Source: a virus
IMG/VR virus record: IMGVR_UViG_3300046504_000196
Coordinates: 1-36,537 of that record
DNA length: 36,537 nucleotides
Strand: one strand, 5' to 3'
Shown here: piece after piece, positions 7,526 through 31,248 of the stretch
How positions within the stretch are numbered: the first letter of the stretch is position 1
Layout: every line of letters starts with the position of its first letter
The notes under the pieces: model-generated
What the model was told of the DNA's origin: nothing
What the model saw: the letters and a program-made list of their open reading frames with translations, nothing else
The model's database searches: none
Program-made: the position numbers and the translations under genes

Positions 7526-8443
7526 ATGGCAAACGAAAACATTCCACCAAAAGAAACTCCAAAAGAAAGTATTGCTGAAGTATTAAAAAAATACAAAGAA
7601 GCAACTGCAAGTGGTGAAAATAAGGCAACTGGTACTAATATTCCAAAAATGCCTGTTTTTAATCCACAAGAATTTGAAAGAACTATGTCAAAAGAAACTG
7701 ATCCTGATTTAATGACTTCATATGAAAGCATTAAATTACCATCAAAAGGTATGTTCTATCAAAACGGAATATCAGAAGTTAATGTTGAATACATGACTTC
7801 AAGAGATGAAGATTTACTCACTACACCATCATTAATTGAAAATGGAACTGTAATTGATCTTCTTTTGAGAAGAAAAATTAAAACATCCGGGATTAATCCT
7901 GAAGAATTACTGCCTGGTGACCGTAACGCAATTATATTATTTTTGCGTATTTCAAGTTATGGTCCAGATTATGCAGTGCAAGTAAATGATCCTCGAACAG
8001 GTATGCCATTTAAAACAACTGTTGATTTAGCCAGATTAAGGCATAAAGAAATAGAAGAACAACCAGATCAATTTGGTCATTTTCAGGTTGAACTGCCTAT
8101 GCGTAAGAAAATTGCAACTATTAGATTATTAACTTCAGGTGAAGATACTATTATATTTAAAAAAGCCGAAGCATATAAAGAAGCAAGTGGCGAAGAATAT
8201 AGTCAATATTCAACAATGAAGTTAAAGGCAAGTGTTGTCGCAATTAATGAAAAGACAGATCGATCATATATTGATAAGTTTGTTGATGCAATGCCTGCAC
8301 TTGATGCCTATACAATTCGTAGAAAATTAATGGATGTTAGTCCTGATGTTGATATGGACTATGAATTCACCGCACCTGATAAAGTATTTAAATTTAAGGC
8401 AACTTTAACTGTGGGCATAGACTTTTTTTTCCCCTCAACTTAG
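7526..8443 (+). CDS. T4 gp26/gp51-type baseplate hub assembly (tail chaperone) protein
   Basis: The 305-residue product carries features of the T4 baseplate assembly family (T4_baseplate, gp26/gp51). These are L-P-S-K-G-M-F-Y near 73-80, a strand V-N-V-E-Y-M-T-S-R-D-E-D-L-L, L-L-P-G-D-R-N-A-I-I-L-F-L-R-I-S-S-Y-G, and V-D-L-A-R-L. These proteins help build the central hub and are not thought to remain in the finished tail. The gene is directly upstream of the tape measure, the position used by tail assembly chaperones. The zero frame stops at TAG 8441-8443, only three codons after a run of eight T and four C. The -1 frame stays open to 8640, suggesting a frameshifted longer form. Confidence 0.75.
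   Translation: MANENIPPKETPKESIAEVLKKYKEATASGENKATGTNIPKMPVFNPQEFERTMSKETDPDLMTSYESIKLPSKGMFYQNGISEVNVEYMTSRDEDLLTTPSLIENGTVIDLLLRRKIKTSGINPEELLPGDRNAIILFLRISSYGPDYAVQVNDPRTGMPFKTTVDLARLRHKEIEEQPDQFGHFQVELPMRKKIATIRLLTSGEDTIIFKKAEAYKEASGEEYSQYSTMKLKASVVAINEKTDRSYIDKFVDAMPALDAYTIRRKLMDVSPDVDMDYEFTAPDKVFKFKATLTVGIDFFFPST
8425..8431 (+). other. Candidate -1 frameshift slippery heptamer (T TTT TTC)
   Basis: In the frame of the gp26-like gene the codons are GAC TTT TTT TTC CCC. The heptamer T-TTT-TTC (8425-8431) is a canonical X-XXY-YYZ slip site: both tRNAs re-pair after moving one base back. The zero frame ends three codons later. No convincing downstream stem-loop was seen. A homopolymer read error is the main alternative. 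Confidence 0.55.
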
Positions 8444-15414: not shown

Positions 15415-17544
15415 ATGAAAAATAACATCGTAGTCGTATTTTCCTCACATTTTTCAGAAGAAGAAAATCAAAAGTTTATAAAACACGTAGATGAAACAAT
15501 TGGAGTTCAACACAAAACAATTTGTTATCAAAACCTCAATCAATTTAGTCTACCACAGGTATATAATGATGCAATTGAGAAGCATAAAGTCAATGATTGT
15601 ATTTTTGTAATGTGTCATAATGATATTATTATTAAAACTAAAAATTGGGGTAGACTACTTCTAACTAAATATAATAATTCAAAGTACGACATTATTGGTG
15701 TTGCTGGAAGTACATATCTTCCCGCATCGGGAATGTGGTGGGAAGATCGAACCAAAATGTGTGGCATTGTGGAACATACCGATGGTTTAACTCAATGGGT
15801 AAGTGAATACTCTAAGCCAATTCTTAATGTAAAAGAAGTGGTTTTAATTGATGGTTTATTTATAACATTTAATCCCGACACAATTATACATAAATTTGAT
15901 GAAGAATTTAAAGGTTTTCATTTTTATGACCTGAGTTTCTGTATGCCTAACTATCTTGATGGTTGTAATATTGGTGTAACAACCGTAATCAGGATACTGC
16001 ATAAGTCAGTTGGTCAGACCAATCAACAATGGGAAGATTGTAGACGGCAATTTGCAAAGAAATATGAAGACGAATTACCATTGTCGTTACCACCAATTTA
16101 TAGTGATATTGTTGTCAAGTTAACTGCAGAACCCAAGGTTTCGATCATTATACCTACAAAGAATAATCTTAAATATATTCTTAATAATATAAATTCGTGG
16201 AATGATATCTGTAATTATAGTAATTACGAAATTTTAATTGCAGACACGGGTAGTACTGATGATGTAATTAGTGGATATGATGAAATACTGAGTGATAAGG
16301 TAAAACTTATTCGTTATGATTGGTATAATTTTGCCAAAATCAACAACAATATGGTGAAAAATCATGTGAGTGCCGACACAGAATTAGTGCTGTTCTGCAA
16401 CGATGATATTAGGTTAATTAATGATGCACTCAGCAGATGTGTTGAAATCTATAATAAGAATAAAGACGTTGTTGGTACAATTGGAATTCGTTTGCATTAC
16501 GGTAATGGCAGTATTCAGCATAATGGTATTATAATATATCGGGATCATGAAACCAATATAAGACTTTCACATCGGGACATAAAAAAATTGGAAGACTATC
16601 AGACAGGTGTAAATATGAATTCAATCGGTAATACTGGAGCATTTTTACTAATAAAAAAAGATTTATTTCAGTCTTTCGGTGGATTTCCGGAAAATTACGT
16701 GGAATGCCTTGAGGACGTTGAATTAAATCTCCGTTGTAAAATATTGGGTTTAAAAAACATTACTGTTAGTGATGCTGTTGCATATCACTATGAATCTGTT
16801 TCAAGAAACAAAATTCCTGGCGGTGAAAACAGATTTATGACAGATTATTTTACTTTATTGAATTTCATACAAAATAACGGTGTTTCAATAGTACAAAATG
16901 TGGTGAAAATACTTCCTGTAAGTAAATTTGTGGAAGGTAAATATAGTGATGCACTTGTTAATATAATAACAAGAACGCACAACAGACCTAAATATTTTGA
17001 GAATTGCCGAGAATCAATATTAAATCAAAGTCATAAAAATATTAATCATGTTGTTGGTAGTGATACGGATTGTGATTATTATGGTGATTGTATAAACTTA
17101 AAACTTCAAGACGTACAATTTCCTGTTGCAGAATATGGAACATATCAAGCACCTTGGAATTTACATTTAAATGAGTTACAAAAACACGTTAAAAACGGTT
17201 GGGTAATGTATTTAGACGATGACGATAAATTTGTTTCCAATGAGTCATTAAAAATTATAGTAAACAATATTGATAATGAGGACCAAATGATATTTTGGAG
17301 AGTAGACATCAACGGTTGGATTGTACCACCAAATGAAAGTTTTGGTAAAATTATTGCAGGTCAGATTTCGGGTATTGGTTTTATGTTTCATAGTAAACAT
17401 TTGCCAGTTGATTGGGGTTCATGGAATTTTGGTGATTATCGTGTAATGACGCAATTAGCAAAAAAATTAAAACAAAAATGGATCAATGCCGTGTTAACTC
17501 AGACACAAGGCAAACCCAATTTTGGTCAAATACCTGTTGATTAA
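15415..17544 (+). CDS. Three-module glycosyltransferase (GT2-like fusion)
   Basis: This 709-residue protein holds three GT-A-like modules. Module 1 (about 1-225) has I-V-V-V-F-S-S and a motif F-V-M-C-H-N-D-I at 64-71, like the StrF-type glycosyltransferase domain. Module 2 (about 240-495) is a classical GT2: V-S-I-I-I-P-T-K-N-N, A-D-T-G-S-T-D, F-C-N-D-D-I near 330, and a rhamnosyl-type G-A-F-L-L-I-K-K-D-L-F and E-D-V-E-L-N-L-R-C. Module 3 (about 510-709) has N-I-I-T-R-T-H-N-R-P and Y-L-D-D-D-D near 600. It could add several sugars in succession. It is first in the operon and follows a host-type promoter. Donors and acceptor are not known. Confidence 0.8.
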   Translation: MKNNIVVVFSSHFSEEENQKFIKHVDETIGVQHKTICYQNLNQFSLPQVYNDAIEKHKVNDCIFVMCHNDIIIKTKNWGRLLLTKYNNSKYDIIGVAGSTYLPASGMWWEDRTKMCGIVEHTDGLTQWVSEYSKPILNVKEVVLIDGLFITFNPDTIIHKFDEEFKGFHFYDLSFCMPNYLDGCNIGVTTVIRILHKSVGQTNQQWEDCRRQFAKKYEDELPLSLPPIYSDIVVKLTAEPKVSIIIPTKNNLKYILNNINSWNDICNYSNYEILIADTGSTDDVISGYDEILSDKVKLIRYDWYNFAKINNNMVKNHVSADTELVLFCNDDIRLINDALSRCVEIYNKNKDVVGTIGIRLHYGNGSIQHNGIIIYRDHETNIRLSHRDIKKLEDYQTGVNMNSIGNTGAFLLIKKDLFQSFGGFPENYVECLEDVELNLRCKILGLKNITVSDAVAYHYESVSRNKIPGGENRFMTDYFTLLNFIQNNGVSIVQNVVKILPVSKFVEGKYSDALVNIITRTHNRPKYFENCRESILNQSHKNINHVVGSDTDCDYYGDCINLKLQDVQFPVAEYGTYQAPWNLHLNELQKHVKNGWVMYLDDDDKFVSNESLKIIVNNIDNEDQMIFWRVDINGWIVPPNESFGKIIAGQISGIGFMFHSKHLPVDWGSWNFGDYRVMTQLAKKLKQKWINAVLTQTQGKPNFGQIPVD

Positions 17545-17546
17545 TT

Positions 17547-18260
17547 ATGGAGAAATTGGTTGATATTTATATGGCATCATTGTGGCGACAGGGACATGTG
17601 GTTAAAACAGTTAAATCGTTATTGCAGAGTCCAGAAGTGGGTAGTGTTACAATAGCATGTAATAATTACACTAATGAACAATGGGAATTTGTTAATAAAG
17701 AATTGGATGATCCAAAAGTTATATTACATAGAACTAATAATGAAAAGGGCAGTAATGAAAAACTCAGATTTATTGCTATTGGAAGTAATTTTTATATATG
17801 CTTGGCAGACGATGATCTCATATATCCACCTGATTATCTTAATAAATTAATTCAAGGCTGTGAAAAATATAATGCTATGGTTTCTCTACACGGTAGAATC
17901 ATACCAAAAGGTATTATTGGTAGTTATTATGGACAACCGTTGGCAGTTTTTCGATCATTAGGCACAGTTTTAAATGATGTTGAGGTTGACATTGCATCTA
18001 ATTGTGGTTCTTTATTTAAAAGAAATTTTTATAATGATCTTGATAAATGGTATGACTTCTGTGGCGGTACTTCAATGGATGACATATATGTAAATTATTT
18101 TGCTAAAAAAAGAGGTATTCGTAGGATAATACTTGCACATCAAGAAGGATATTTAAGACATAAAGAGCAACTTCCTGAAGATGATTATGTATTTAATAGA
18201 CATAGATATAGTGATAGAGTACAGACTGAATTTATAAATAAATATTTCAACACGATTTAA
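17547..18260 (+). CDS. GT2-like glycosyltransferase
   Basis: The protein has 237 residues. It starts with V-D-I-Y-M-A-S-L-W-R-Q-G, then V-T-I-A-C-N-N-Y-T-N as the nucleotide-binding strand, and C-L-A-D-D-D-L-I-Y-P with the metal-binding Asp residues at 88-90. This is the layout of short GT-A enzymes that act in O-glycan or capsule assembly. It starts 2 nt after the fusion glycosyltransferase and abuts the next gene exactly, so all three are one operon. Acceptor unknown. Confidence 0.75.
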   Translation: MEKLVDIYMASLWRQGHVVKTVKSLLQSPEVGSVTIACNNYTNEQWEFVNKELDDPKVILHRTNNEKGSNEKLRFIAIGSNFYICLADDDLIYPPDYLNKLIQGCEKYNAMVSLHGRIIPKGIIGSYYGQPLAVFRSLGTVLNDVEVDIASNCGSLFKRNFYNDLDKWYDFCGGTSMDDIYVNYFAKKRGIRRIILAHQEGYLRHKEQLPEDDYVFNRHRYSDRVQTEFINKYFNTI

Positions 18261-19070
18261 ATGAAAAGAAATAATATAAATATTAAAAAGACAATTAAAA
18301 AAAGAATTCTATTTGAACAACAAAATAAAGCAGATAGACTTAATAAATCAAAAGGGCATGAAATTTATGTCAGAAGTCATCCTGTGAAAACAGGAAAAAA
18401 AATAAATGTAATTATTTCTGCATATGATTGTGCTGAATTTATTGAAGAATGTTTAAATTCAATTGAAAAACAAACGTATAAATGTTATAAAATATTGTTA
18501 GGTATTGATGGCTGTGAAAAAACATTGGAAAAAATAAAGGAGATTCATCAAAAATATTCAAATTTATATGTATATTATTCTGAGGAAAATAATGGTCCGT
18601 ATCAAATGTTCAATGCACTTATACAATTAGTTCCAAATGGAGAATACATTCAAATATTTGGTGCTGATGATGTAATGAATATTAATATGTTGGAAAATAT
18701 GTCAAAATATGAAATTCCTACGGTATCACGTAATGATGGCGTTTTATTTATTAATAAAAATGTATTAAATATAGTAGGCGGTTTTAGAGATTGGAAATGC
18801 GGTGCTGATAGTGACATGATACATAGAATTACATTGGCAACAAAAAGTAAAATGTATTATGTTTCTCAATATTTTTTTCGTAGAGAACATGATAAACAAC
18901 TCACAAAACATTACAATACAAATTTTGATAGTAATTTAAGAAAGAGATATATTGAAATTACTGAAAACAATAAAAAATCGAAAAATCCTGATATTTATAT
19001 AACTCCGATTTGTAGTATAATAAAAAGAATTTTATATGAAACATTTGATAATAGTACGATTAAAATATAG
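18261..19070 (+). CDS. GT2-like glycosyltransferase
   Basis: The protein has 269 residues. After a basic N-terminal extension of about 45 residues comes I-N-V-I-I-S-A-Y-D-C-A-E-F, the GT2 opening strand. It is followed by L-N-S-I-E-K-Q-T-Y, L-L-G-I-D-G-C-E, and Q-I-F-G-A-D-D at 131-137 as the D-x-D-type site. The C-terminal part has V-G-G-F-R-D-W-K-C-G-A-D-S-D, typical of acceptor recognition in this fold. The stop is TAG. The next gene begins 35 nt inside this one in another frame. Confidence 0.75.
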   Translation: MKRNNINIKKTIKKRILFEQQNKADRLNKSKGHEIYVRSHPVKTGKKINVIISAYDCAEFIEECLNSIEKQTYKCYKILLGIDGCEKTLEKIKEIHQKYSNLYVYYSEENNGPYQMFNALIQLVPNGEYIQIFGADDVMNINMLENMSKYEIPTVSRNDGVLFINKNVLNIVGGFRDWKCGADSDMIHRITLATKSKMYYVSQYFFRREHDKQLTKHYNTNFDSNLRKRYIEITENNKKSKNPDIYITPICSIIKRILYETFDNSTIKI

Positions 19071-19653
19071 AGATATTGAACTCTTAAAATTTCGTGCATC
19101 ACTAATGAAAGAAATTTTAATTCCGTGTTTAGAATCACAAACAAATCAAGATTTTACTCTTTGCATTATGATGTATGATGCTGATCTTAAGTTTGTTTAT
19201 AATGTTTTACAATATAATTTTATATCATTTGAAGATTATAAAATACTTAAACAATATTGCATTGACGATAATATTAACATACAAACACGTCACGATTCTG
19301 ATGATTTCATGTCTAATAATTATGTTGAAAAAATTCAGTTGGAATATAAAAATATTATAAAGGGGCATGACACATTTATACTACAATTTCAACCAGAAAA
19401 AATTAATTATAAAACAGGTGAAATTTTACCCTTTTATCAATATACGAATGAGTCGATTTCGGGATTTGTTACTTTATGTCAAAAAAATGTAAATTTCACT
19501 GTTTATGAAAGACAACATATTTATTTATATGAATTAACAAAAAACATTTATACTTATCCAATAGGATATGTTAAATACTATATACATGGAAAAAATGATT
19601 CATTAATACCACGTGAAGAACGAATTCGTCAATGGAAGTATAATAATGATTAA
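19036..19653 (+). CDS. Putative rhamnosyltransferase-like protein
   Basis: The product (205 aa) fits the 'putative rhamnosyl transferase' family: I-I-V-R-L-K-Y-R-D-I near the start, L-I-P-C-L-E-S-Q-T-N-Q-D-F at 28-40, and the acidic motif R-H-D-S-D-D at 85-90. The early start that overlaps the previous gene by 35 nt is preferred because the N-terminal strand and R-A-S-L-M-K-E helix belong to the fold. It is shorter than typical members at the C-terminus. Sugar specificity cannot be read from sequence. Confidence 0.65.
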   Translation: MKHLIIVRLKYRDIELLKFRASLMKEILIPCLESQTNQDFTLCIMMYDADLKFVYNVLQYNFISFEDYKILKQYCIDDNINIQTRHDSDDFMSNNYVEKIQLEYKNIIKGHDTFILQFQPEKINYKTGEILPFYQYTNESISGFVTLCQKNVNFTVYERQHIYLYELTKNIYTYPIGYVKYYIHGKNDSLIPREERIRQWKYNND

Positions 19654-19663
19654 AATATAAAAC

Positions 19664-20218
19664 ATGATGACATTTAATAGTAAAGAATATTGGGAAAACA
19701 GATATAAATCTGGTGGTAATTCTGGAATAGGATCACAAGGCATTATTGCTGAATATAAGGCGAAAGTAATTAATGATTTTGTGAAGAACAATAATATTCA
19801 GACGGTATGTGAACTTGGTTGTGGAGATTGGTTGTTTTCATTATTCAAAGTTTCCGAATATACAGGATTTGATGTTAGTGAATTTGTTGTTGAAAGAAAT
19901 AAAAAAATATACAAACATAAGTTTACTACATCTATGAATGAACTTACTTTGTATGATTTAACCATTTCAATGGATGTTATTTTACATTTAATTGAAGAAG
20001 AAGTGTATCAACAATATATGAAAGACCTTTTTAGGTTAAGTAACAAGTATGTAATTGTTTATAGTACAAATAAGGACGAAATTCTTGGTGGTATACATAA
20101 TATATTTAGAAAATTTTTACCTGATGTTCCTCAAGAGTTTGAACTAATTGAATTTATTGACAATCCACATAAAGGACCAAATACTCAAGCAGATTTTTTT
20201 ATTTTTAAAAAAATATAA
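19664..20218 (+). CDS. SAM-dependent methyltransferase
   Basis: This class I methyltransferase of 184 residues has motif I V-C-E-L-G-C-G-D at 48-55 for S-adenosylmethionine, followed by Y-T-G-F-D-V-S at 66-72 and a motif IV-like region D-L-T-I-S-M-D-V-I-L-H-L-I-E-E. The D-V-I-x-H-L-I-x-x-x-x-Y pattern is common in methyltransferases found in glycan operons. Two ATG codons are adjacent at the start and either may be used. Its place among glycosyltransferases suggests methylation or capping of a sugar, though a small-molecule target is possible. Confidence 0.7.
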   Translation: MMTFNSKEYWENRYKSGGNSGIGSQGIIAEYKAKVINDFVKNNNIQTVCELGCGDWLFSLFKVSEYTGFDVSEFVVERNKKIYKHKFTTSMNELTLYDLTISMDVILHLIEEEVYQQYMKDLFRLSNKYVIVYSTNKDEILGGIHNIFRKFLPDVPQEFELIEFIDNPHKGPNTQADFFIFKKI

Positions 20219-20226
20219 TTAATAAT

Positions 20227-20943
20227 ATGGCAAAGGTAAATATTATAATAAGAGCATTCAATCGTCTCGAATATACAATAACTACAATTCGTGAAATTGA
20301 CCGTTTGGCGGGTTATAATAATTATAAAATTATTGTTATTGACAATGCCAGTAGTGATGGAACAAAAGAATGGTTAAAATCTTTAATGATTGAGGGTTAT
20401 TATAAATTAAAGCCAATTTACTTGAATTATAATGCTGGTGATTTTGGCGGTACAAAAATAGGTTATGATAATCTTGACTTAGATTGCGAATATGCGATGC
20501 AATGGGATAATGATTGTCCACCATTAACCGAAGGATTTTTAGCAAAAATGGTTGATATTATGGACACTTTTTCAATAATTGGTCAGTTAATGTTAAAACG
20601 TCAAGGTGTTGGAACTGTTTTACAAATATTTAATAAACAAGAGTATAATGGAGTGATTTTTGGTGATGTTAGTCAAGTAACTTGTGTTAATATGCATAGA
20701 AGGTCGGCAGTTCAAAAAATAAATTTTTGGATTACTGAACTTGATACCAAAACATATTGGGATTTTGGTTTAAATGATAAAATGCGAGAAGCAGGATATT
20801 ATTTAAAAAAAATTGAAAACATTAAAGTACAACACATTGATTGTAATGGTACATATGAGGGAAATCGACAAGTACTTAAATATCCAATATATACTAAAAA
20901 TCGCAGTGGAAACATAAATTACAATAAAACTAAATATGAATAA
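20227..20943 (+). CDS. GT2-like glycosyltransferase
   Basis: The protein has 238 residues. It shows V-N-I-I-I-R-A-F-N-R-L at 4-14, I-I-V-I-D-N-A-S-S-D-G-T at 35-46 and Q-W-D-N-D at 92-96, the GT-A nucleotide-sugar and metal motifs. The last 40 residues include V-Q-H-I-D-C-N-G-T-Y-E-G, possibly a catalytic His/Asp region. It begins 8 nt after the methyltransferase and overlaps the following gene by 8 nt. Confidence 0.75.
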   Translation: MAKVNIIIRAFNRLEYTITTIREIDRLAGYNNYKIIVIDNASSDGTKEWLKSLMIEGYYKLKPIYLNYNAGDFGGTKIGYDNLDLDCEYAMQWDNDCPPLTEGFLAKMVDIMDTFSIIGQLMLKRQGVGTVLQIFNKQEYNGVIFGDVSQVTCVNMHRRSAVQKINFWITELDTKTYWDFGLNDKMREAGYYLKKIENIKVQHIDCNGTYEGNRQVLKYPIYTKNRSGNINYNKTKYE

Positions 20944-21640
20944 AAAGATTGGCATTGTTATGACCTATTATAATAGGCAATATCAATTAAATAAAACACT
21001 TGAAACAATAAATCAACAAAATTATGATAATTTGTCAGTTGTAATTGTCGATGATAAAAGTGATGTAGAACTTGTTTTACCAAAATGTAATTTTGATGTT
21101 AAAATAATTAGAATTGGTGACGAAAAACAATGGACAAATCCAGAACCAGCATATAATAGAGGATTTTTATATTTACTTGAAAATACTGATTCAGAAATAA
21201 TTATAAATCAAAATGCCGAAACATACCATGTTGGTAACGTATTAGAATATGCATCGATAAATACGAATTTAAATAATTACATTACATTTGGTTGTTATAA
21301 TGTTGTTCCAAGTGGTAAGCAGAATGGATGGTATAATCATCCAATACATAGACCAGTAGCATATGAATTTTGTTCAGCAATTCATAAAGAGAATTTAATA
21401 AAATTAAATGGATATGATGAACGGTTTTCACTTGGTAGTGGATATGGTGACGATTTTTTATTACATAGAATAAGACTAATGAGATTAAATGTCGAAATAA
21501 CAACAAATCCAATTGTTGTACATCAATGGCATGAAAGTGTTTTGCATGGCGATTTTAATAAAAATCAAAGATTGCTTCAAATTTTAAGACAAGAAGGAAA
21601 AATTAAGGCGGTACATCTTTTTAATAAAGATTTCTGCTAA
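20936..21640 (+). CDS. GT2/galactosyltransferase-like protein
   Basis: The protein has 234 residues. The N-terminus G-I-V-M-T-Y-Y-N-R at 6-14 and V-V-I-V-D-D-K-S-D at 35-43 are typical GT2 strands. The usual D-x-D is replaced by N-Q-N-A-E at 91-95. The C-terminal domain A-I-H-K-E-N-L-I-K-L-N-G-Y-D-E-R, then G-S-G-Y-G-D-D-F, matches the galactosyltransferase C-terminal module. Absence of a clear D-x-D may mean a different metal dependence. It overlaps the previous gene by 8 nt; a 29-nt gap precedes the epimerase. Confidence 0.7.
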   Translation: MNKKIGIVMTYYNRQYQLNKTLETINQQNYDNLSVVIVDDKSDVELVLPKCNFDVKIIRIGDEKQWTNPEPAYNRGFLYLLENTDSEIIINQNAETYHVGNVLEYASINTNLNNYITFGCYNVVPSGKQNGWYNHPIHRPVAYEFCSAIHKENLIKLNGYDERFSLGSGYGDDFLLHRIRLMRLNVEITTNPIVVHQWHESVLHGDFNKNQRLLQILRQEGKIKAVHLFNKDFC

Positions 21641-21669
21641 AAATAATAAGTATATTTTAAATAAAAACA

Positions 21670-22545
21670 ATGAGAATTTTAATTACTGGTGCTAAAGGAT
21701 TTATTGGCACACACTTAACGAAACATTTAGAAGAATGTGGATATGATGTTATCGGTATAGATTTTCAAGATGGCGATCTTCGAGAAGATGGTATGGCAGA
21801 TGCATTAATTGAAAAATATAAACCAGAAATAGTAATTCATCTTGCAGCACAGGTGGGAATATGGTTTAACGAACAAGATTGTTTTCACGCAATTAATTCA
21901 AATGCCATAATGACATTACGTGTTGCTCAAGCATGTGCTAAAAATGGTGCAAGACTATTTCACACATCAACATCAGAAGTTTATGGTGAACATGGCGATG
22001 AAACTATTGATGAAGATGCTCCATTGATTGGTAAACCAACGGGTATTTATGCAATAAGTAAAAGATGGAGTGAAGATGCTGCAAGAGAATATGCGCCAGA
22101 TGGTTTGGTTATTATTAGACCGTCAATGCCATATGGTGCAGGAGCACCCCCTGGAAAAGGACGTAGAGCAATGGATAATATGTTGTGGCAAGCATATCAT
22201 CGCAAATCAATTACTGTACACAGGGGGTCAGTTCGTTCATGGTGTTGGATTGGTGATGTGGTGCGTGGTTGGCAAACAATAATTGAATCTGGACAAGAGG
22301 GTGCATTTAATATTGGAAGGGATGATGACGAAAGAACAATGCTTTGGATAGCAGAAGAATCTTGTAGAATTACAGGTGCTGACAAATCGTTGATTAAATT
22401 AGTTGACCCACCAATAAAAAAAACGATGATTAAAAGATTGTCGACAAAAAAATTACGTGATTTAGGATGGAAACCCATTGTTGAGATTGAAGAAGGAATG
22501 CAGAAAGTTTATGAGTGGGTAATTAAATTTCCTTGGGAAGAATAA
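21670..22545 (+). CDS. NAD-dependent sugar-nucleotide epimerase/dehydratase
   Basis: The protein (291 aa) is an extended short-chain dehydrogenase. The NAD-binding G-A-K-G-F-I-G lies at 7-13. H-L-A-A-Q-V-G follows at 57-63, then H-T-S-T-S-E-V-Y-G at 108-116 and the catalytic Y127-x3-K131. It ends with a domain containing V-R-S-W-C-W-I-G-D-V and F-N-I-G-R-D-D, as in UDP-glucose 4-epimerase and dTDP-glucose dehydratase relatives. It would convert a nucleotide sugar used by the nearby glycosyltransferases. The substrate cannot be told from motifs. It is distinct from the HldD-like epimerase further on. Confidence 0.8.
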   Translation: MRILITGAKGFIGTHLTKHLEECGYDVIGIDFQDGDLREDGMADALIEKYKPEIVIHLAAQVGIWFNEQDCFHAINSNAIMTLRVAQACAKNGARLFHTSTSEVYGEHGDETIDEDAPLIGKPTGIYAISKRWSEDAAREYAPDGLVIIRPSMPYGAGAPPGKGRRAMDNMLWQAYHRKSITVHRGSVRSWCWIGDVVRGWQTIIESGQEGAFNIGRDDDERTMLWIAEESCRITGADKSLIKLVDPPIKKTMIKRLSTKKLRDLGWKPIVEIEEGMQKVYEWVIKFPWEE

Positions 22546-22566
22546 TGCCGAATATAAAAAAATATT

Positions 22567-22746
22567 ATGAAAGACGACAAAATAAAAACCGAAAAATGCG
22601 TTAATTGTGGCGCAGAAACAGATATTCCAATCAGTTTAGACATTGATTTAAGAAAAAATTACGTGGAAGGTGCAGGTCAATTATGTCCTGCTTGTTATAA
22701 TAAGTTTTATGATACAAGAGAAGACAAAGGTTCTGGTAATAGGTGA
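22567..22746 (+). CDS. Small zinc-ribbon protein, 59 aa
   Basis: ATG at 22567 opens a frame ending TGA at 22744-22746. Two C-x2-C pairs, C11/C14 and C40/C43, would form one zinc ribbon. The first 10 residues and the tail are charged. It begins 21 nt after the epimerase and overlaps the HldE-type kinase start by 38 nt. The paired Cys and the fit in the operon support a real gene. Function unknown; a nucleic-acid or protein-binding adaptor is possible. Confidence 0.6.
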   Translation: MKDDKIKTEKCVNCGAETDIPISLDIDLRKNYVEGAGQLCPACYNKFYDTREDKGSGNR

Positions 22747-23494
22747 TGGTTGCAAGGATGTATTTCAATACGGTAAATGCGAAAGGTTAAGTCCTGAAGC
22801 ACCAGTTCCGGTATTTAAACCCCTGAAAGCCATAAATAATGGCGGTATGGCGGTAAATGTATATAATAATCTCAAAGGATTGGGTGTTGATTGTGATATT
22901 CTTACTAATTCAGGTATAACCAAAACCAGGATCGTTGATGAAGTCAGCAATCAGATGCTTTTGAGGATCGATGAAAATGATGAAATTCAGCAAATCACAA
23001 TGGAACAATTAGAAACAATTAATTATGGAATATATAAAGCAATTGTAATTAGTGATTATGGAAAGGGTTTTTTGCATGAAGAAGACATAGAGCATATTTC
23101 AATAAGGCATAAACGTGTATTCATGGATACCAAAAAAGAAATTGGAAATTGGTGTAACGATGTTTTTTGCATTAAAATAAACAACAAAGAATATCAAAGA
23201 AATAAATCTTGGTTAGATCATATGTTTAATAATAATTTAATTGTGACATTAGGTGATAAGGGCGCAAGGTATTGGAATATAAAGAAAAAAGTAAAAGAAC
23301 AGATATTTCCAAACACCAATGAGCATCCTGTACGTGATCTTACAGGTGCAGGTGATACTTTTTTAGCAGGACTTGTTGCAAAATTCATAGAAAATAACGA
23401 TATTTGTGATGCAATAATTTTTGCCAATCGTTGTGCTGCTTGGGCAGTAACGCAAAAGGGTGTGTCAGTGGTTGATAGATATAAAATTGTTTGA
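22709..23494 (+). CDS. HldE-type heptose-7-phosphate kinase domain (PfkB family)
   Basis: This 261-residue product closely resembles the N-terminal kinase half of HldE/RfaE. It has V-L-V-I-G-D-G near 8-14, then R-L-S-P-E-A-P-V-P-V-F at 26-36, N-G-G-M-A-V-N-V-Y-N-N at 44-54, T-R-I-V-D-E-V-S-N-Q-M-L-L-R-I-D at 73-88, and the ATP-site motif L-T-G-A-G-D at 211-216 with the catalytic Asp. HldE phosphorylates D-glycero-D-manno-heptose 7-phosphate at C1. In Escherichia coli this domain is fused to the adenylyltransferase; here the two halves are separate genes, as with HldA/HldC. I chose ATG 22709 because earlier codons lie inside the zinc-ribbon gene and look unrelated. The cupin gene follows after one base. 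Confidence 0.8.
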   Translation: MIQEKTKVLVIGDGCKDVFQYGKCERLSPEAPVPVFKPLKAINNGGMAVNVYNNLKGLGVDCDILTNSGITKTRIVDEVSNQMLLRIDENDEIQQITMEQLETINYGIYKAIVISDYGKGFLHEEDIEHISIRHKRVFMDTKKEIGNWCNDVFCIKINNKEYQRNKSWLDHMFNNNLIVTLGDKGARYWNIKKKVKEQIFPNTNEHPVRDLTGAGDTFLAGLVAKFIENNDICDAIIFANRCAAWAVTQKGVSVVDRYKIV

Positions 23495-23495
23495 A

Positions 23496-23873
23496 ATGAT
23501 AGATGTTAAGTATCAAAAAGACCCGAAATTAAAAGTGCCAAAGGCATGGGGAGAAGAAGTAATAATACATAATGATGATGGTTATTGTGGAAAACTTTTG
23601 CGTTTCAGGAAAGGTGGAAAATTCAGTATGCATTTTCATTCGGTGAAAACCGAAACTTGGTATGTTAATTATGGTAAATTTATACTAACATTTATTGATA
23701 CAAAAATTGCAGATAGACGTACAACTACTTTAGTGAATGGTGATATAGTACATGTTGAAAAAAATACTCCACATCAACTTGAAGCACTCGAAGACGGTGA
23801 AATATTTGAAGTCTCAACACCACATTCAGATGAAGATAGTTATAGAATTGAGAAAGGAGATAGTCAAATATAA
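23496..23873 (+). CDS. Cupin-fold protein (sugar-phosphate isomerase-like)
   Basis: The protein has 125 residues. The single cupin barrel has metal ligands H46-x-H48 and E53 in motif 1 (M-H-F-H-S-V-K-T-E) and H93 in motif 2 (N-T-P-H-Q-L). The start K-A-W-G-E-E resembles the mannose-6-phosphate isomerase C-terminal cupin family. It sits between the HldE-type kinase and a HAD phosphatase, so it may act on a sugar phosphate or nucleotide sugar; a GmhA-replacing isomerase is a speculative possibility. ATG 23496 fits better than the upstream GTG at 23460, which lies inside the kinase gene. Confidence 0.65.
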   Translation: MIDVKYQKDPKLKVPKAWGEEVIIHNDDGYCGKLLRFRKGGKFSMHFHSVKTETWYVNYGKFILTFIDTKIADRRTTTLVNGDIVHVEKNTPHQLEALEDGEIFEVSTPHSDEDSYRIEKGDSQI

Positions 23874-24160
23874 TGTTAATTTATGTGGACATTGATGGCA
23901 CTGTGTGTGATACTGTTGGCGGTTATATGAACGCCAAACCAGATCATCAGGCGATTGCTAAGATCAATAAATTATATGATGAGGGCAATATAATTGTTTA
24001 TTGGACCGCAAGGGGTAAAACAACTGGCATTGATTGGTCTGAATTAACCGGACGACAGTTGACAGATTGGGGTTGTAAATTTCATGATCTTATAATGAAC
24101 CAAAAGCCTAATTATGATTTACTTATTTGTGATAAGACTAAAAGAATTGAAGAATTATGA
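23873..24160 (+). CDS. Compact HAD phosphatase
   Basis: The protein has only 95 residues. Motif I is Y-V-D-I-D-G-T with D6 and D8, motif II is Y-W-T-A-R-G (T45), and a motif IV-like region is L-L-I-C-D-K-T. The family resembles short phosphatases of capsule or polysaccharide loci. Placed between the HldE-like kinase and nucleotidyltransferase, it could take the GmhB step (heptose 1,7-bisphosphate to 1-phosphate), although GmhB proteins are about twice as long. The start overlaps the cupin stop by one base, and the end overlaps the next gene by 4 bases. Confidence 0.7.
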   Translation: MLIYVDIDGTVCDTVGGYMNAKPDHQAIAKINKLYDEGNIIVYWTARGKTTGIDWSELTGRQLTDWGCKFHDLIMNQKPNYDLLICDKTKRIEEL

Positions 24161-24591
24161 ATATTTGGACAAACGGATGCTTTGACATCTTACACGCAGG
24201 GCATATTGATTTATTGTGGTATGCAAAATTATATACTGATGATGTGCAGACAACTGCAAATATTAATGTACCAACAAATAAATTATATGTTGGACTTGAT
24301 AGTGATGAACGGGTTAAGTTCCTCAAAGGAGATAAACGACCAATTAATGACATTAATACCAGAGTTAAAATAATGTCAAATCTTAAAATGGTTGACAGTG
24401 TTGTAATTTTTCATGATGAACAGGAATTAGAATATTTTATCAAAGTATTTAATATTGATTACATGGTAATTGGCGATCAATACAAAGATAAACGGGTTAT
24501 TGGCGCAGAATTTGCGAAACTTGGTGTGATTTATTATCCGACAGATGATCGTTCAAGTACAAATATAATTGAAAAGATTAAAAATCTATGA
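24157..24591 (+). CDS. HldE-type heptose-1-phosphate nucleotidyltransferase domain
   Basis: This 144-residue protein matches the C-terminal adenylyltransferase half of HldE/RfaE. It has T-N-G-C-F-D at 5-10, H-A-G-H at 13-16 (nucleotide-binding HxGH), L-Y-V-G-L-D-S-D-E-R-V-K, G-D-K-R-P-I-N, V-I-G-D-Q-Y, and S-S-T-N-I-I-E-K-I near the end. It would join heptose 1-phosphate to AMP from ATP, giving ADP-heptose. It overlaps the HAD gene (ATGA) and the epimerase gene (4 bases). The adenosine rather than cytidine preference is inferred from the HldE likeness. Confidence 0.8.
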   Translation: MNIWTNGCFDILHAGHIDLLWYAKLYTDDVQTTANINVPTNKLYVGLDSDERVKFLKGDKRPINDINTRVKIMSNLKMVDSVVIFHDEQELEYFIKVFNIDYMVIGDQYKDKRVIGAEFAKLGVIYYPTDDRSSTNIIEKIKNL

Positions 24592-25547
24592 TAGTAGTAA
24601 CAGGTGGAGAAGGTTTTATTGGTCAGAATCTCGTCAAGGAGTTAGAAAAACGGGGAAATATTGGCGTTGTGGTTCTCGATACAAAAACCGAAACTCTGAA
24701 TTCAATTTATGAATGGTTGATGATTCATGCCAAAGAAATTGATATAATCTTTCATTTAGGTGCTATTACCGATACCACTATAATGGATAGAAATCTTTTC
24801 GATGAATATAATGTAGTTTCATCAATGTTTATTTGGAACATCTGCACAAATAATCAAATTCCGTTGATTTATGCAAGTTCGGCAGCAACTTATGGTGATG
24901 GAGAAGAAGGTTTTGATGATGAAAAATCAATATTGGATTTGAAACCATTAAATCCATACGGTTGGTCAAAACAGCAATTTGATTTATGGGTATTAGAACA
25001 GGAAAAACAACCACCATATTGGTATGGATTGAAATTCTTTAATGTATATGGCAATGGTGAGGCAGGTAAGGGCAAGATGGCATCAGTTGTGTATCAGAAA
25101 TATCTTGAAATTAGGGCAAATGAAGAATATGTGGATGATTGCGTTAAGTCTGATGGTAGTTTTTGTGGTACTCTGCATGTGAATCTATTTAAATCTCACA
25201 ATCCAAAATATATGGATGGTGAACAATTGAGAGATTTTATTTATGTTGATGATATAGTTGATGTTTGTATTTGGCTTTGGAGAGAAAAACCATTGTCCGG
25301 CATTTATAATGTTGGCACAGGTAATGCACGTACATTTAATGATCTCGTAATGGCAGTTTTCAAAAGTCTTGGTACAATGCAAAATATTAAATATATTAAT
25401 ATTCCACCTAAAATCAGGGATAAATATCAATATTTTACTCAGGCAAAGATGAATAAATTAAGAAATGCGGGTTACAGTAAACCTTTTCATGAATTGGAAG
25501 ATGGCGTTAAGAAGTACGTTAATAAACTAAAATATGAAAATTGCTAA
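24588..25547 (+). CDS. HldD-like ADP-heptose 6-epimerase
   Basis: This 319-residue protein resembles HldD/RfaD. The nucleotide site T-G-G-E-G-F-I-G lies at 5-12. H-L-G-A-I-T-D-T-T follows at 56-64, then Y-A-S-S-A-A-T-Y-G-D-G at 95-105 and P-Y-G-W-S-K at 123-128 (catalytic Y124, K128). F-F-N-V-Y-G-N-G-E and K-G-K-M-A-S-V-V are also present. HldD epimerises ADP-D-glycero-beta-D-manno-heptose to the L-glycero form used for lipopolysaccharide core. With the kinase and nucleotidyltransferase just upstream the pathway reading is mutually supporting. It overlaps its neighbours at both ends. Confidence 0.85.
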   Translation: MIVVTGGEGFIGQNLVKELEKRGNIGVVVLDTKTETLNSIYEWLMIHAKEIDIIFHLGAITDTTIMDRNLFDEYNVVSSMFIWNICTNNQIPLIYASSAATYGDGEEGFDDEKSILDLKPLNPYGWSKQQFDLWVLEQEKQPPYWYGLKFFNVYGNGEAGKGKMASVVYQKYLEIRANEEYVDDCVKSDGSFCGTLHVNLFKSHNPKYMDGEQLRDFIYVDDIVDVCIWLWREKPLSGIYNVGTGNARTFNDLVMAVFKSLGTMQNIKYINIPPKIRDKYQYFTQAKMNKLRNAGYSKPFHELEDGVKKYVNKLKYENC

Positions 25548-26443: not shown

Positions 26444-27232
26444 ATGGAAAAAGACAAAAAAAGTAATCTTTCAGAAGAGCATCTTAGGAAGATTAAATAT
26501 CGTTTTGGATATAAGATAAATGAAACCGCAAGATATTCTCCATTAACAAACGCAAATGAAGTATTTGATGAAATACCTACGTTAAAAAATGAGGCAGGTG
26601 ATCAGGAAGATGCTCCTAAACCTGGCGGTGGCGAAGTGCCACCTGCGCCAACTAATGATTTACCTCAAGGTACAGATACATCCACGTTACCTGGACCTGA
26701 AGGTGGTGCTGGCGAAACTCCGGGCGAACAATTGCCAAAGAAAATATCTGCAGGTGGAAAAGAAACACCTGAAGAAGACCCCGAAGTAACGGGTCAAGAC
26801 CCAATGGTAGGTGGTGATGTTAATCCAATGGGTGCAGACATGAATGCAAATCCTCAAGGAGAAGTTGATGACATTCAGAATGATATTATTAAACATAATA
26901 TTGAGGCAATGAAATCTATTAATGATCAATTGCAAAGCCTCGATAAAACAACACAGGATTTGAATGCTAAATTAGATAGTCTTAATGCTGATGTTGAAGA
27001 AGTTCGTGAACCAACGAATACTGAGAAACTTATGAATAAAACAAGTGTAAGTTATCCTTATTATTTTAATCTTAATGATTTTTGGTCGGGAAATTGGTTT
27101 AATGAAAAACATAGTGGTGAAAAAGAAAAGGGCGTAAGAGAACTTCCTGATGGTTCATTCATAGCAGATTTTGATGATCTGCCACAGAAGTCAAAACAGG
27201 ATGTTCAGAATAGTTTTAATGAATTTGATTAA
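26444..27232 (+). CDS. Probable virion/head-associated protein with Pro/Gly-rich linker
   Basis: The product has 262 residues. A basic N-terminal helix (N-L-S-E-E-H-L-R-K-I-K-Y-R-F-G-Y-K-I-N-E) precedes a disordered Pro/Gly/Glu-rich section from about residue 45 to 130. A coiled coil follows (D-I-Q-N-D-I-I-K-H-N-I-E, then S-L-D-K-T-T-Q-D-L-N-A-K) and a folded C-terminal segment with W-S-G-N-W-F. I start at ATG 26444; a TTG two codons earlier is unlikely. The next gene starts within its stop codon. No function assigned. Confidence 0.6.
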   Translation: MEKDKKSNLSEEHLRKIKYRFGYKINETARYSPLTNANEVFDEIPTLKNEAGDQEDAPKPGGGEVPPAPTNDLPQGTDTSTLPGPEGGAGETPGEQLPKKISAGGKETPEEDPEVTGQDPMVGGDVNPMGADMNANPQGEVDDIQNDIIKHNIEAMKSINDQLQSLDKTTQDLNAKLDSLNADVEEVREPTNTEKLMNKTSVSYPYYFNLNDFWSGNWFNEKHSGEKEKGVRELPDGSFIADFDDLPQKSKQDVQNSFNEFD

Positions 27233-27705
27233 TGAAAGTATTTCATTCATATGGCAGTAAAGAAAAACTTTTTGACATGATGAGAAAAGTTAATGGCATT
27301 GCATTGAGTGAAAAAAAAGAAAAAATAAACGAAGAAGTGCTTCCGCAAGGACAAAGGCATGAAATACTCGAAAAATTCATTGAATTTGTTGATGAAAAAC
27401 TTCAGTTAGGTAAAAATATGCCAAAGATTATCATATCATATGATGGTAATGAGGCAAAGAATATGTTGTCGTTTGGCAAAAATACTCCTGAAGCAAAAGA
27501 AATAAGAGTGGTTGATAAAAATAGAAATTTGGCAGACACATGTAGAACATTAGGTCACGAATTAAAACATACCGACCAATATATAAAGGGAAAATTAAAT
27601 CCTGGTTCTGGTGACGATGGCACTGATTTTGAGAACGAAGCAAATGCTTTTGCAGGTGTTATCATGAGAGAATTTGGAAGAAAGTACCCAATAATATTTG
27701 AATAA
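27232..27705 (+). CDS. Minigluzincin-like metalloprotease with possible head-targeting N-terminus
   Basis: The protein has 157 residues. It contains a zinc-protease signature H-E-L-K-H at 109-113 and, 23 residues on, F-E-N-E-A-N-A-F-A-G (E136 a plausible third ligand), the gluzincin arrangement. The first 27 residues parallel those of the next gene (G-S-K at 8-10, V-N near 20) and end in L25-S-E27. T4 head protease gp21 cuts after (L/I)-x-E, so this may be a cleavable capsid-targeting peptide. A late-type promoter heads the block. A protease carried in the head is inferred, not shown. Confidence 0.65.
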   Translation: MKVFHSYGSKEKLFDMMRKVNGIALSEKKEKINEEVLPQGQRHEILEKFIEFVDEKLQLGKNMPKIIISYDGNEAKNMLSFGKNTPEAKEIRVVDKNRNLADTCRTLGHELKHTDQYIKGKLNPGSGDDGTDFENEANAFAGVIMREFGRKYPIIFE

Positions 27706-27714
27706 TTAAAGAAA

Positions 27715-30700
27715 ATGAGAATCTATAAACCAGTTGGTAGTAAAGATAGATTTGTTGAAATGTTTCAGAACGTCAACAAAATTAAATTAAATGAGGGATT
27801 ATATGAAGCAGGTAGTCCAAATTTAAATGCCGATACTGTTTTAAACATGGCATACAATCAATTAAAAAATAACGGTCTTAATATAGAACATAGTAATACT
27901 CAGGCAACTGGCGAAGAAAATTTCGTTGAATTGTTATGTACTGATAAACAAGGCAATAATATTACTTTTGTTTTTAAAGTACAATCAACCGAAGGTGATC
28001 AGGAAGGTGTATATAATGTTAGTGGTGTTATACTAAACAGTTTTTCATATGATAGTGCTGATGGCGAAGAAACTATTGACTTGGCTGAAGACGGATTAAA
28101 TAAATTCAATCAGCAACATGGTCAAGAATTATTTGATGTAGTTAACAAATATATTGATGTCGAAGAACCTGCAGAAACTGATGTTCAGGAAGCAGTTGAT
28201 TTAATTGATGCTATAAAACAAGATAGTTATCCTTTTGGCGGTGGCGATGATAGAATGCAAACCGGAAAAAATTATGGTGATGAAAAACCAACAAATGATG
28301 CAGTTAGAGTAAAATCACCCGAATTGGATCAATTTGTTCAGGAAGGCGATATGAAAACATCATCTATTTTTTCAGTTTCAAATTCATTAAAAAAATTAGG
28401 TATTCGAATGCTTGATATTATTGACAAACCAGAAATTAATACAATTATATTTAAATTAAAATATGGGGGTAAATCTTATAATGCTTCGGTTAATAAGGAT
28501 GAAATTGATTCAATAGATAATGTTTCAGAAATATTAAAAAATAAACTTGGAATCAGTAGTGTTTCAGAAACATTACAAACTGGAAAAGCATATGCAGACG
28601 AAAAACCAACAAATCCTGATGTAAGGGCAAAATCACCTGAATTGGATCAGTTTGTTCAGGAAGAACAGAGTGTTAATGAATTTGATAAACCTGCAATGAA
28701 GTTAATTCAGCAAGCACCGGGTGGTGCGACTGCAGGCGGTGTTAAGCAACTTGAAGAGAAAATGGAATTGCCAATAATGGGAGTATCAAGTATTGGTGGT
28801 GCAAGTGTTAATGAAGTGGATATAGTTGGTGAACCAAAACCCCCGTTTCCAGTGAGTACAAAATCGCCTGTCGATGATCTACCACCGGAAAAAAAGAAAG
28901 TTATCATGGATGCCATTAATAATTTAACTGTTAAAAGAGGCAGACGTGAATATGCTCCAAGTGCAAATGAAATAAATGATGAAATACTAAAAATGCGTAA
29001 TCAACCATCTGCAGTTAAAGAAGATTGGGAAGATGATATATTGCATAAAGGTGCAGAAGAATTTGAAAAAAGAGTTGGTGATCCTGTTGTAATTGATAGA
29101 GATAATCCTGTTGATATACAGCAAGTACCTGAACCAGAAGAAGAACCAATTCCTGAAGTAAGTCCTGAAAAACGAAAAATTATTTTGCAAGCAGAGGAAA
29201 ATCTAATGGCAAAAAATATAAGAAATACTAATTATTCACCAACAATAACTGAATTGTTGGATGAAATTGACAAGATCGAAGGTAAAGTAAAGCCTATTAA
29301 GAAATTCAGAAGTGTTTCACAAGAAGCAGAACCATATTTAAGTGAAATTGGTACTGCACCTTCACCATCTCCATATAGGATTAGTTCAAAAGATATGGAA
29401 CAAATTTTTGATAGAATTGATCCAAATTCTAATATTAAAACTCAAGTAATTCAGGCAGCAAATGAATTTGTTGATACGACATTAGGTGTTCAAAGATTTC
29501 AAATGCCGCCAGAAAAATATAAACAAATAGTAAAAAATGTTGCAGTACAGATGTATATGGCTTATTTGGAACGAATAGCAGTATTAAATGAGGAAGAAGA
29601 AAAAAATAATTATCCTGATCCGTTAGGAAAAAAGTTTAAACCAAAAAAACATTATCCACATAAAAAGAAAAAATTAGATACTTCTGTTAAATTAACCGAA
29701 GAAGAAAATTATACTGATGACGATGATGAACCCGTATTGCCTGTTGATGCTGCTGCAAAAAGAGCACAAATGCAGGCAAGATCAGATATTTCCAAGGACC
29801 TTGGCGGTGATGCAAAACGTCCAATAGGAAATTATGATACAAAATTTCAATTTGACATGGCTGAAGACCTAAGTGGCGAACAACCTTCAACTGGTGAAGA
29901 ACTATTGAAAAAAGAATATGAAAATCTCAGACAGAACGAAACATTTGAATTTCTATCGGATGCATATATTAGTTTGTTAGGACTTAGTAGGGAGTTCAGG
30001 GACGACAAGAAGATTCAAGTTTCATTAACAAATATTCGTGACAGTATTGTAGAATATCTTAATATGTCTGATATACCTATTACTCAACAAGGTGTTCAGG
30101 ACTTTTTTGAAAATAGTGATCTTGAAGAAGGTTTAAGTGAAGATAAAGAACCTGGAGCAGAAATACCTGAAACCGATCCCGATGCGACAGGACCTGATAT
30201 TACTCCTGAAGAAACACCAACTGATGATGGTATGTCACATGAACCTGAAGGTGATAAAATTGAACAACTTGCACAAGATAAAGAAGAACAGGGTGAAGTA
30301 ATTCAAGGTGGCAAAGGCGATGGTAAATCACCATTAGAATTCGATCCGGAACAGATATTAATGGGATTGAAAGTAGAAAAAGAACATACAGATGATCCTC
30401 TGACCGCAATTGAAATTGTTATGGATCATTTAACTGAAGACCCTGAATATTATACGCAAAAGGATACTCCTGAAGCAAGTGCACAAGCAGGCGCAAGTGC
30501 AGATGCAAGTAATGGTGAAGAAAAAAGTCGATTGCCGGGCGTAGACAGTGATGATGAAGGTAATCCAATACCAGCAATTGAGCCGAATTTTAAGGCAATG
30601 GGTTTAGAACCTAAAGATAATGACAAGGAAATGACCGATAGATTGCTTGGTTTTAAACCACATAATGTAGGTGATGAGGTAGAACCAGAAAAAGAACTTG

Positions 30701-31248
30701 GTGAATCTACAACAGTTTCGGATGAAAAAGATAGATTTCAAGCAATTGTCAATACTCCAAGACCTGAAACTCCATTAGTAAAAGAAGATTTAGGTTTTTC
30801 AGAAAAAGATTTGAAAGATCGTGATCCTGCTTCATGGCATCAACTTCAAATAGCAAAAAAGACATTACAAATGCCTGATGCAATGGTTGGCGTAATGGGT
30901 GGTATGACTAAAGAGGAAGCAAAAGAAATTCTAAGAAAATATAGTGTTAAAGGTATTCAGGAAATCGTTGCAGGTAAGAAAAGCAAAGCATTTCGAATTG
31001 GTGAATATGCCGTTGGTGGCATTATAAAGGTAGATATAAATGGTCCAATGATTAGAATTGAAGCATTGGATTTTAATAGCAAGAGACCTGTTAAAGGAGA
31101 AGATTTTGCAAAAGACGATGTAAATGGCATGGATAATTATCTTAATGAATTGACTTCATCATTTTATGCAGGTAAAGTAATGGAATGGATTAAAACAAAT
31201 TTGGGTGTTAGTTCAAAACCTAACTATTTTAGTAATCAAAATTGGTAA
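27715..31248 (+). CDS. Giant acidic repeat protein, probable internal head protein
   Basis: The protein is 1177 residues long, strongly acidic and largely low-complexity. The N-terminus (M-R-I-Y-K-P-V-G-S-K...L25-N-E27) parallels the preceding metalloprotease-like protein and ends in a possible T4-type prohead protease site. Two internal duplications are visible. One is T-G-K-x-Y-x-D-E-K-P-T-N...S-P-E-L-D-Q-F-V-Q-E at about 182-211 and 288-317. The other is P-E-K-(K/R)-K-x-I...Y-(A/S)-P-(S/T) at about 390-428 and 482-520. A compact C-terminal region after about 1040 has W-H-Q-L-Q-I and V-D-I-N-G-P-M-I-R-I-E. An ejected inner-body protein is a reasonable guess. No enzyme motif recognised. A terminator follows. 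Confidence 0.6.
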   Translation: MRIYKPVGSKDRFVEMFQNVNKIKLNEGLYEAGSPNLNADTVLNMAYNQLKNNGLNIEHSNTQATGEENFVELLCTDKQGNNITFVFKVQSTEGDQEGVYNVSGVILNSFSYDSADGEETIDLAEDGLNKFNQQHGQELFDVVNKYIDVEEPAETDVQEAVDLIDAIKQDSYPFGGGDDRMQTGKNYGDEKPTNDAVRVKSPELDQFVQEGDMKTSSIFSVSNSLKKLGIRMLDIIDKPEINTIIFKLKYGGKSYNASVNKDEIDSIDNVSEILKNKLGISSVSETLQTGKAYADEKPTNPDVRAKSPELDQFVQEEQSVNEFDKPAMKLIQQAPGGATAGGVKQLEEKMELPIMGVSSIGGASVNEVDIVGEPKPPFPVSTKSPVDDLPPEKKKVIMDAINNLTVKRGRREYAPSANEINDEILKMRNQPSAVKEDWEDDILHKGAEEFEKRVGDPVVIDRDNPVDIQQVPEPEEEPIPEVSPEKRKIILQAEENLMAKNIRNTNYSPTITELLDEIDKIEGKVKPIKKFRSVSQEAEPYLSEIGTAPSPSPYRISSKDMEQIFDRIDPNSNIKTQVIQAANEFVDTTLGVQRFQMPPEKYKQIVKNVAVQMYMAYLERIAVLNEEEEKNNYPDPLGKKFKPKKHYPHKKKKLDTSVKLTEEENYTDDDDEPVLPVDAAAKRAQMQARSDISKDLGGDAKRPIGNYDTKFQFDMAEDLSGEQPSTGEELLKKEYENLRQNETFEFLSDAYISLLGLSREFRDDKKIQVSLTNIRDSIVEYLNMSDIPITQQGVQDFFENSDLEEGLSEDKEPGAEIPETDPDATGPDITPEETPTDDGMSHEPEGDKIEQLAQDKEEQGEVIQGGKGDGKSPLEFDPEQILMGLKVEKEHTDDPLTAIEIVMDHLTEDPEYYTQKDTPEASAQAGASADASNGEEKSRLPGVDSDDEGNPIPAIEPNFKAMGLEPKDNDKEMTDRLLGFKPHNVGDEVEPEKELGESTTVSDEKDRFQAIVNTPRPETPLVKEDLGFSEKDLKDRDPASWHQLQIAKKTLQMPDAMVGVMGGMTKEEAKEILRKYSVKGIQEIVAGKKSKAFRIGEYAVGGIIKVDINGPMIRIEALDFNSKRPVKGEDFAKDDVNGMDNYLNELTSSFYAGKVMEWIKTNLGVSSKPNYFSNQNW
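28258..28345 (+). repeat. 88-bp imperfect direct repeat, copy 1
   Basis: This copy lies in the giant head-associated gene, 230 nt before copy 2 at 28576-28663. Both encode T-G-K-x-Y-x-D-E-K-P-T-N and S-P-E-L-D-Q-F-V-Q-E. Differences are mostly at third positions and in the middle, so the duplication is old and the protein motif is under selection. Confidence 0.75.
28576..28663 (+). repeat. 88-bp imperfect direct repeat, copy 2
   Basis: Second copy of the in-frame repeat at 28258-28345, same length and no internal gap. Confidence 0.75.

Follow-up and report, generated by a model that had tools for sequence, protein, structure and literature searches.

Two adjacent genes of a T4-like virus fragment begin with a common peptide segment, which belongs to a family of tags found on 181 distinct proteins and which we interpret, at a probability of about 0.83, as a portable capsid-targeting propeptide that would be cut by the gp21-type prohead protease of this clade. 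The modularity of the tag, the conservation of its sequence up to a glutamate, the presence of the protease gene in relatives and a matching motif in their gp22 and gp23 proteins are direct observations; the docking partner, the packaging, the cleavage and the ejection are inferred. The set of tagged proteins and the conserved L/I-x-E motif, together with the protease of the relatives and the gp22 and gp23 sites, support the reading as an analogous packaging tag that had been offered in a preliminary description of the same DNA.

The window, the whole stretch of DNA that was analyzed, comprises positions 1-36,537 of the IMG/VR record IMGVR_UViG_3300046504_000196, a 36.5-kb virus fragment that we assign as T4-like because it encodes a T4_baseplate protein at 7526-8443. 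A big block of genes for glycosyltransferases and nucleotide-sugar enzymes (15415-25547, including epimerases and glycosyltransferase 2) separates the tagged gene pair from the T4-like structural genes. The first gene of this pair, the metalloprotease-like ORF at 27232-27705 (157 aa), begins with MKVFHSYGSKEKLFDMMRKVNGIALSE, and the second, a large ORF at 27715-31248 (1177 aa), with MRIYKPVGSKDRFVEMFQNVNKIKLNE (Table 1). In an ungapped comparison, 10 of the first 27 residues of both proteins are identical, and the BLOSUM62 score of the two segments without the initial Met amounts to 50, compared to a mean of -21 for shuffled sequences (sd 11.4, z 6.2), none of which reached the observed value in 200,000 attempts. 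Beyond the tag we found no relatedness between the two proteins (BLASTP best E 3.9), and no third segment of close similarity is encoded in any of the six frames of the window. The proposed presence of a common N-terminal segment on two adjacent and otherwise different proteins is thus real, and the L-x-E had been correctly located at residues 25-27 of both. On the level of DNA, the two tags are identical at 50 of 81 positions and show synonymous differences at common residues, which argues that it is the peptide and not the DNA that is conserved.

Table 1. Coordinates of the described features, in positions of the window except for the last row, which refers to related contigs.
Feature	Position	Strand	Basis
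262-aa upstream gene, member of the same conserved cluster	26444..27232	+	homologues in about 45 loci
157-aa HExxH metalloprotease-like putative cargo protein with N-terminal tag	27232..27705	+	HELKH and ENEANA kept in 30+ relatives
Metalloprotease tag (putative propeptide), residues 1-34	27232..27333	+	30-homologue alignment, AlphaFold model
L-S-E, residues 25-27, site of the preliminary description	27304..27312	+	common to closest relatives only
I-N-E, residues 32-34, likelier cleavage site	27325..27333	+	E34 invariant in 30/30
HELKH zinc-binding HExxH motif, residues 109-113	27556..27570	+	invariant columns H109, E110, H113
Acidic multidomain protein of 1177 aa, tagged at its N-terminus; DUF5661 towards the C-terminus	27715..31248	+	
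Large-protein tag, residues 1-27	27715..27795	+	N-terminal similarity, homologue alignment
L-N-E, residues 25-27; cleavage predicted to follow E27 (27795)	27787..27795	+	alignment of 10 homologues, with N26 and E27 invariant
DUF5661 domain, residues 879-915 of the large protein	30349..30459	+	Pfam PF18905, E 6e-8
Stand-alone gp23-propeptide-like proteins	G005:112271-112501 (L247); L127 from 17538; G017:103792-104007	minus for L127	

A profile search with the alignment of the two window tags retrieved 48 viral contigs, many of them 100-370 kb long, nearly all of which carry the same gene pair with a tag on both proteins. A looser profile built from the first loci uncovered a second flavour of the tag on many smaller proteins, which is described by the consensus M-(K)-(D/N)-(S/N)-K-Q-R-L-F-E-V-M-x-(K/R)-(V/L)-D-x-x-F-K-P-K-L-N-E and accounts for 95 further matches. 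All tagged proteins originate from large viral contigs of the T4-like type, and single-linkage BLASTP clustering divides their mature parts into at least 34 unrelated families, with counts that vary with the thresholds. Both flavours contain a core that is predicted to be helical, (G-S/D-N)-K-(E/Q)-R-L-F-E-(M/V)-M-x-(K/R)-V-N/D, followed by a linker of variable length that ends with (L/I)-x-E, usually L-N-E. Matches to the core in the first set are confined almost entirely to the beginning of reading frames (100 at ORF starts vs 6 elsewhere). The search for other proteins starting with the tag, which had been suggested as a check, was thus successful, and a first property expected of a capsid-targeting sequence (CTS), namely an N-terminal segment that is common to otherwise unrelated proteins, is met. 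Full or near-full genomes contain one to about six tagged genes when judged by the strict core model and more if weaker matches are included. When 84,980 genomes of bacteria and archaea were scanned, no confirmed match to either flavour emerged at the sensitivity of that scan, and 50,697 phage records contained no convincing tag; INPHARED matches in PA5oct-like Pseudomonas phages (E 5) were dismissed, the matching frame of phage Ettore lacking the core at the gene start.

The adjacency of the two window genes, which are nearly always found together, might suggest that neighbours have merely received a common 5' end by recombination, without any present function. We give this explanation virtually no credence, since the limited DNA identity of the window tags described above and the variation of codons at invariant residues stand against it, as does the retention of the peptide across so many unrelated families. 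On the basis of this codon variation, conservation at the level of DNA or a duplication of gene starts was rejected.

The conservation of the tag extends up to its terminal motif. The flavour-1 tags were recovered without any L-x-E in the search pattern, and L/I-x-E is found in all 71 of them, compared to 39 of 212 control windows of the same proteins (18%), with the more specific L/I-N-E being present in 65 of the 71 tags and in a single control window (1/212, 0.5%). For flavour 2, the set of 95 matches is partly biased since one of the search patterns contained LNE; among the 25 tags that were found independently of this pattern, 22 contain L/I-x-E (control windows 28%) and 19 contain L/I-N-E (control windows 2.4%). 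In total, the first position of the motif is occupied by L in 150 and by I in 22 cases, and the middle position by N in 141 of 172, otherwise by K, S, T or D. The E has a relative entropy of 3.1 bits, compared to 0.6 for the residue behind it, which is often E or D, and conservation thus ends at the glutamate. In untagged genes of the same genomes, L/I-N-E is not enriched at N-termini (1.6 vs 1.5 per 1000), from which we conclude that the motif belongs to the tag. The distance between core and motif is mostly 13, 15 or 18 residues and extends up to 35, with the motif being retained, and a group of small proteins preserves L-(N/K/T)-E followed by WNFDKKK behind variable linkers. A second property of a CTS, the termination of the segment in the gp21 motif (L/I)-x-E, is met in flavour 1 and in the unbiased set of flavour 2. 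About 10% of flavour-2 tags do not contain L/I-x-E, among them those of a tagged ADP-ribosyltransferase (ART) and a kinase. A protein of 82-83 aa with the sequence K(F/M/Y)LNE(E/N)VS near residue 40 is conserved in three genomes (L125:7044, L131:7435, L100:4225).

In the window metalloprotease, the location of L-S-E at residues 25-27 stands as described, but its assignment as the site probably does not: this triplet is confined to the protein and its closest relatives (LSE in L001, LKE in L007) and constitutes an additional motif that is restricted to a small number of the longest tags, whereas the glutamate of I-N-E at residues 32-34, which directly precedes the mature domain, is invariant in all 30 aligned family sequences. 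Judged from this alignment, cleavage would probably occur at I-N-E 32-34 rather than at L-S-E 25-27. An AlphaFold model of the protein contains a helix comprising residues 9-21 and a globular domain from about residue 39, and shows residues 22-34, including both motifs, at low confidence and thus as probably disordered. The protein conforms to what is expected of HExxH metallopeptidases of the IrrE/M78 or M91-like type, an HExxH motif and a downstream acidic ligand, with the conserved HExxH and ENEANA sequences. Matches of the modelled fold, which are of IrrE/PprI- and selecase-type, are weak (best E 0.036), and we therefore refrain from assigning the protein to a named peptidase family. Profile matches to PDB entries (9hnh and the portal structures 9c39/9mt4) were dismissed as chance helical or weak. 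A search with the metalloprotease alone revealed no close relatives, which were only found with the tag alignment.

The gene located upstream of the pair contains I-N-E at residues 25-27 (26516-26524) behind a different N-terminal leader, and its homologues mostly retain (I/V/L)-x-E at this position. The leader itself is conserved and ends with K(I/F)K(Y/H)R..Y(K/V)(I/V)(N/S)E followed by (S/T)(P/A)(K/R)Y. It possibly represents a third leader type, and we infer that the upstream gene belongs to the cargo set.

The absence of a prohead protease had been named as an observation that would refute the packaging-tag reading. The 36.5-kb window, itself a fragment, does not contain such a gene; among its relatives, a gp21-type protease (Peptidase_S77) exceeds the Pfam cut-off in 12/21 and 9/19 contigs (21/40 in total), most of the searched contigs being fragments. 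In one contig (G004), the missing protease is accounted for by the location of gp23 only 1.2 kb from the contig end. In the intact clade gp21 relatives that were aligned, H, S and D coincide with H85, S140 and D168 of the T4 protein, which we take to be the positions of its catalytic residues. Since the protease accompanies the tag because the clade is T4-like, this co-occurrence is necessary, and not an independent proof. In L119:14791-16695, an insert of about 400 aa interrupts the protease beside the catalytic His (HPD followed by C) and matches a Pfam intein splicing domain at an E of 2e-6, below its cut-off, and the same interruption is found in G008, G009, G010, G017, G018, G021, G022, G026, G032, G035, G038 and G040.

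A motif equivalent to the end of the tag is found at the positions of gp22 and gp23 that are processed in T4. The clade gp23, which is encoded in the same gene block as the protease, contains FENQLSHM(I/L)NE followed by SS, compared to FENQ...SFLTE followed by AE in T4, and an alignment of nine full-length clade sequences with T4 gp23 shows M(I/L)NE followed by S in each of the nine. In gp22, I-x-E-(A/S) is found in 9/9 sequences with a variable middle residue. Some contigs encode stand-alone proteins, about 130-146 aa long, whose similarity to gp23 is limited to its N-terminal propeptide region; the copy in G017 contains an internal stop.

The gp23 site also bears on the question whether the tag might instead dock to another phage or host complex, such as the replication, transcription or lysis machinery, with L-x-E being part of a binding motif that remains uncut. 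The resemblance of some tagged proteins to intracellular enzymes (kinase, cupin) and the tags without L-x-E would agree with such a role. We nevertheless regard it as improbable, since L/I-x-E shifts by at least 10 residues relative to the core and yet remains in a disordered linker bordering the mature domain, and since the same motif occupies the site in gp23 that is homologous to the maturation site of T4, neither of which would be expected of a rigid docking motif.

The mature parts of the tagged proteins include ART-PolyVal, AAA_33/Zeta-like kinase, GP88 (9 proteins) and cupin domains (2), besides DUF5661, DUF3293, DUF4313 and a putative metallopeptidase. At one locus, homologous kinases occur with the tag in L147 and without it in L126, with an identity of 45% that begins immediately behind the tag, which defines the latter as a detachable module. 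A second ART-PolyVal protein (L112:10213-10623, minus strand) carries a different leader, MELRKIIATTIREYLNE, that ends with IREYLNE directly before the domain. The presence of metalloprotease, ART, kinase and cupin domains, which are folded enzymes, and of a separate gp22-like gene argues against the tagged proteins being parts of the prohead core or scaffold that gp21 degrades, as are gp22, gp67 and gp68 in T4, instead of cargo. This alternative is suggested above all by the large protein, which is acidic, repeat-rich and of variable length among relatives (379-1177 aa); we consider it unlikely, if somewhat less so than docking to another complex. A scaffold role of the large protein alone remains possible and would still imply processing by gp21.

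For a capsid-targeting propeptide, the following sequence of events can be envisaged. The amphipathic helix (K-E/Q-R-L-F-E-M/V-M-x-K/R-V-N/D) would dock the cargo to the prohead core during head assembly, probably by binding to gp22 or the inner shell, and the flexible linker would then present (L/I)-x-E. The clade gp21, once activated in the prohead, would cut after the E, upon which the tag would leave and the mature protein would be free in the interior of the head, from where it would be ejected together with the DNA at infection. If L-x-E is lacking, a tag might confer targeting without release, as described for the T4 CTS with Asp in position 10 (PMC9026906). Against this reading stand the lack of a cultured relative and of virion proteomics, the absence of similarity to the T4 CTS beyond its ends, the flavour-2 tags without the motif and the frequent acidic residue following the E.

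If the reading is correct, a single short motif identifies the proteins carried in the head and injected by an uncultured clade of giant phages, comprising at least 34 families of mostly unknown function, with (L/I)-N-E as the cleavage rule. It would also extend the capsid-targeting principle of T4 to an unrelated tag sequence, and the tag might be used for loading large heads of the T4-like type with foreign proteins. We consider it conceivable, but only as a speculation that is more probably wrong than right, that the two flavours (GSKERLFEMM...LNE and DNKQRLFEVM...FKPKLNE) constitute a clade-wide loading code, which would direct dozens of interchangeable effectors, among them the metalloprotease, ADP-ribosyltransferase, kinase, cupin and GP88 proteins besides many of unknown function, to two different places or assembly steps of the prohead and make a swappable set of injected proteins readable from sequence.

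Similar strategies are known from several phages. In P1, the N-terminal 30 residues of DarB send the cargo to the capsid, whereas the Dar proteins share no common sequence and no gp21-type L/I-x-E tag is described for them (PMC9024508). The giant phages phiKZ and SPN3US resemble the present clade in having a diverged gp21-type protease (gp175/gp245) that cuts after x-x-E and in ejecting inner-head proteins, with two paralogues sharing identical N-terminal 15 residues, and differ by their A-x-E or S/A/G-x-E specificity and by propeptides that mostly exceed 100 residues (PMC5694885). They do not contain a tag common to dozens of families, and the capsid lineage of the tag clade is that of the T4-type gp23. 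The closest parallel is offered by T4, where gp21 cleaves behind (L/I)-x-E and proteins need the CTS propeptide to become incorporated into the head (PMC9026906). The CTS of T4 spans about 10 residues (MKTYQEFIAE), whereas the clade tag comprises about 24-35 residues, contains a conserved helix, strongly favours N as the middle residue of the site and often continues with an acidic residue, unlike the A found in T4 gp22. Among the T4 proteins inspected, similarity to MKTYQEFIAE of IPII and IPIII is restricted to the initial MK and the final (L/I)-x-E; the tag thus fails as a sequence homologue of the T4 CTS and is not classified as such. Our best reading, inferred from sequence and by analogy, is that it would function like a T4 CTS. 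As in IPI, IPII, IPIII and Alt, an N-terminal segment that is common to unrelated proteins ends with (L/I)-x-E (PMC9026906). As in T4, a gp21-type protease with the same catalytic triad is encoded in related contigs of the clade, if not in the window fragment. Finally, the tagged proteins include an ADP-ribosyltransferase, the activity of T4 Alt, which is packaged into the head and represents the prototype of host-modifying enzymes that are injected (PMC5512222).
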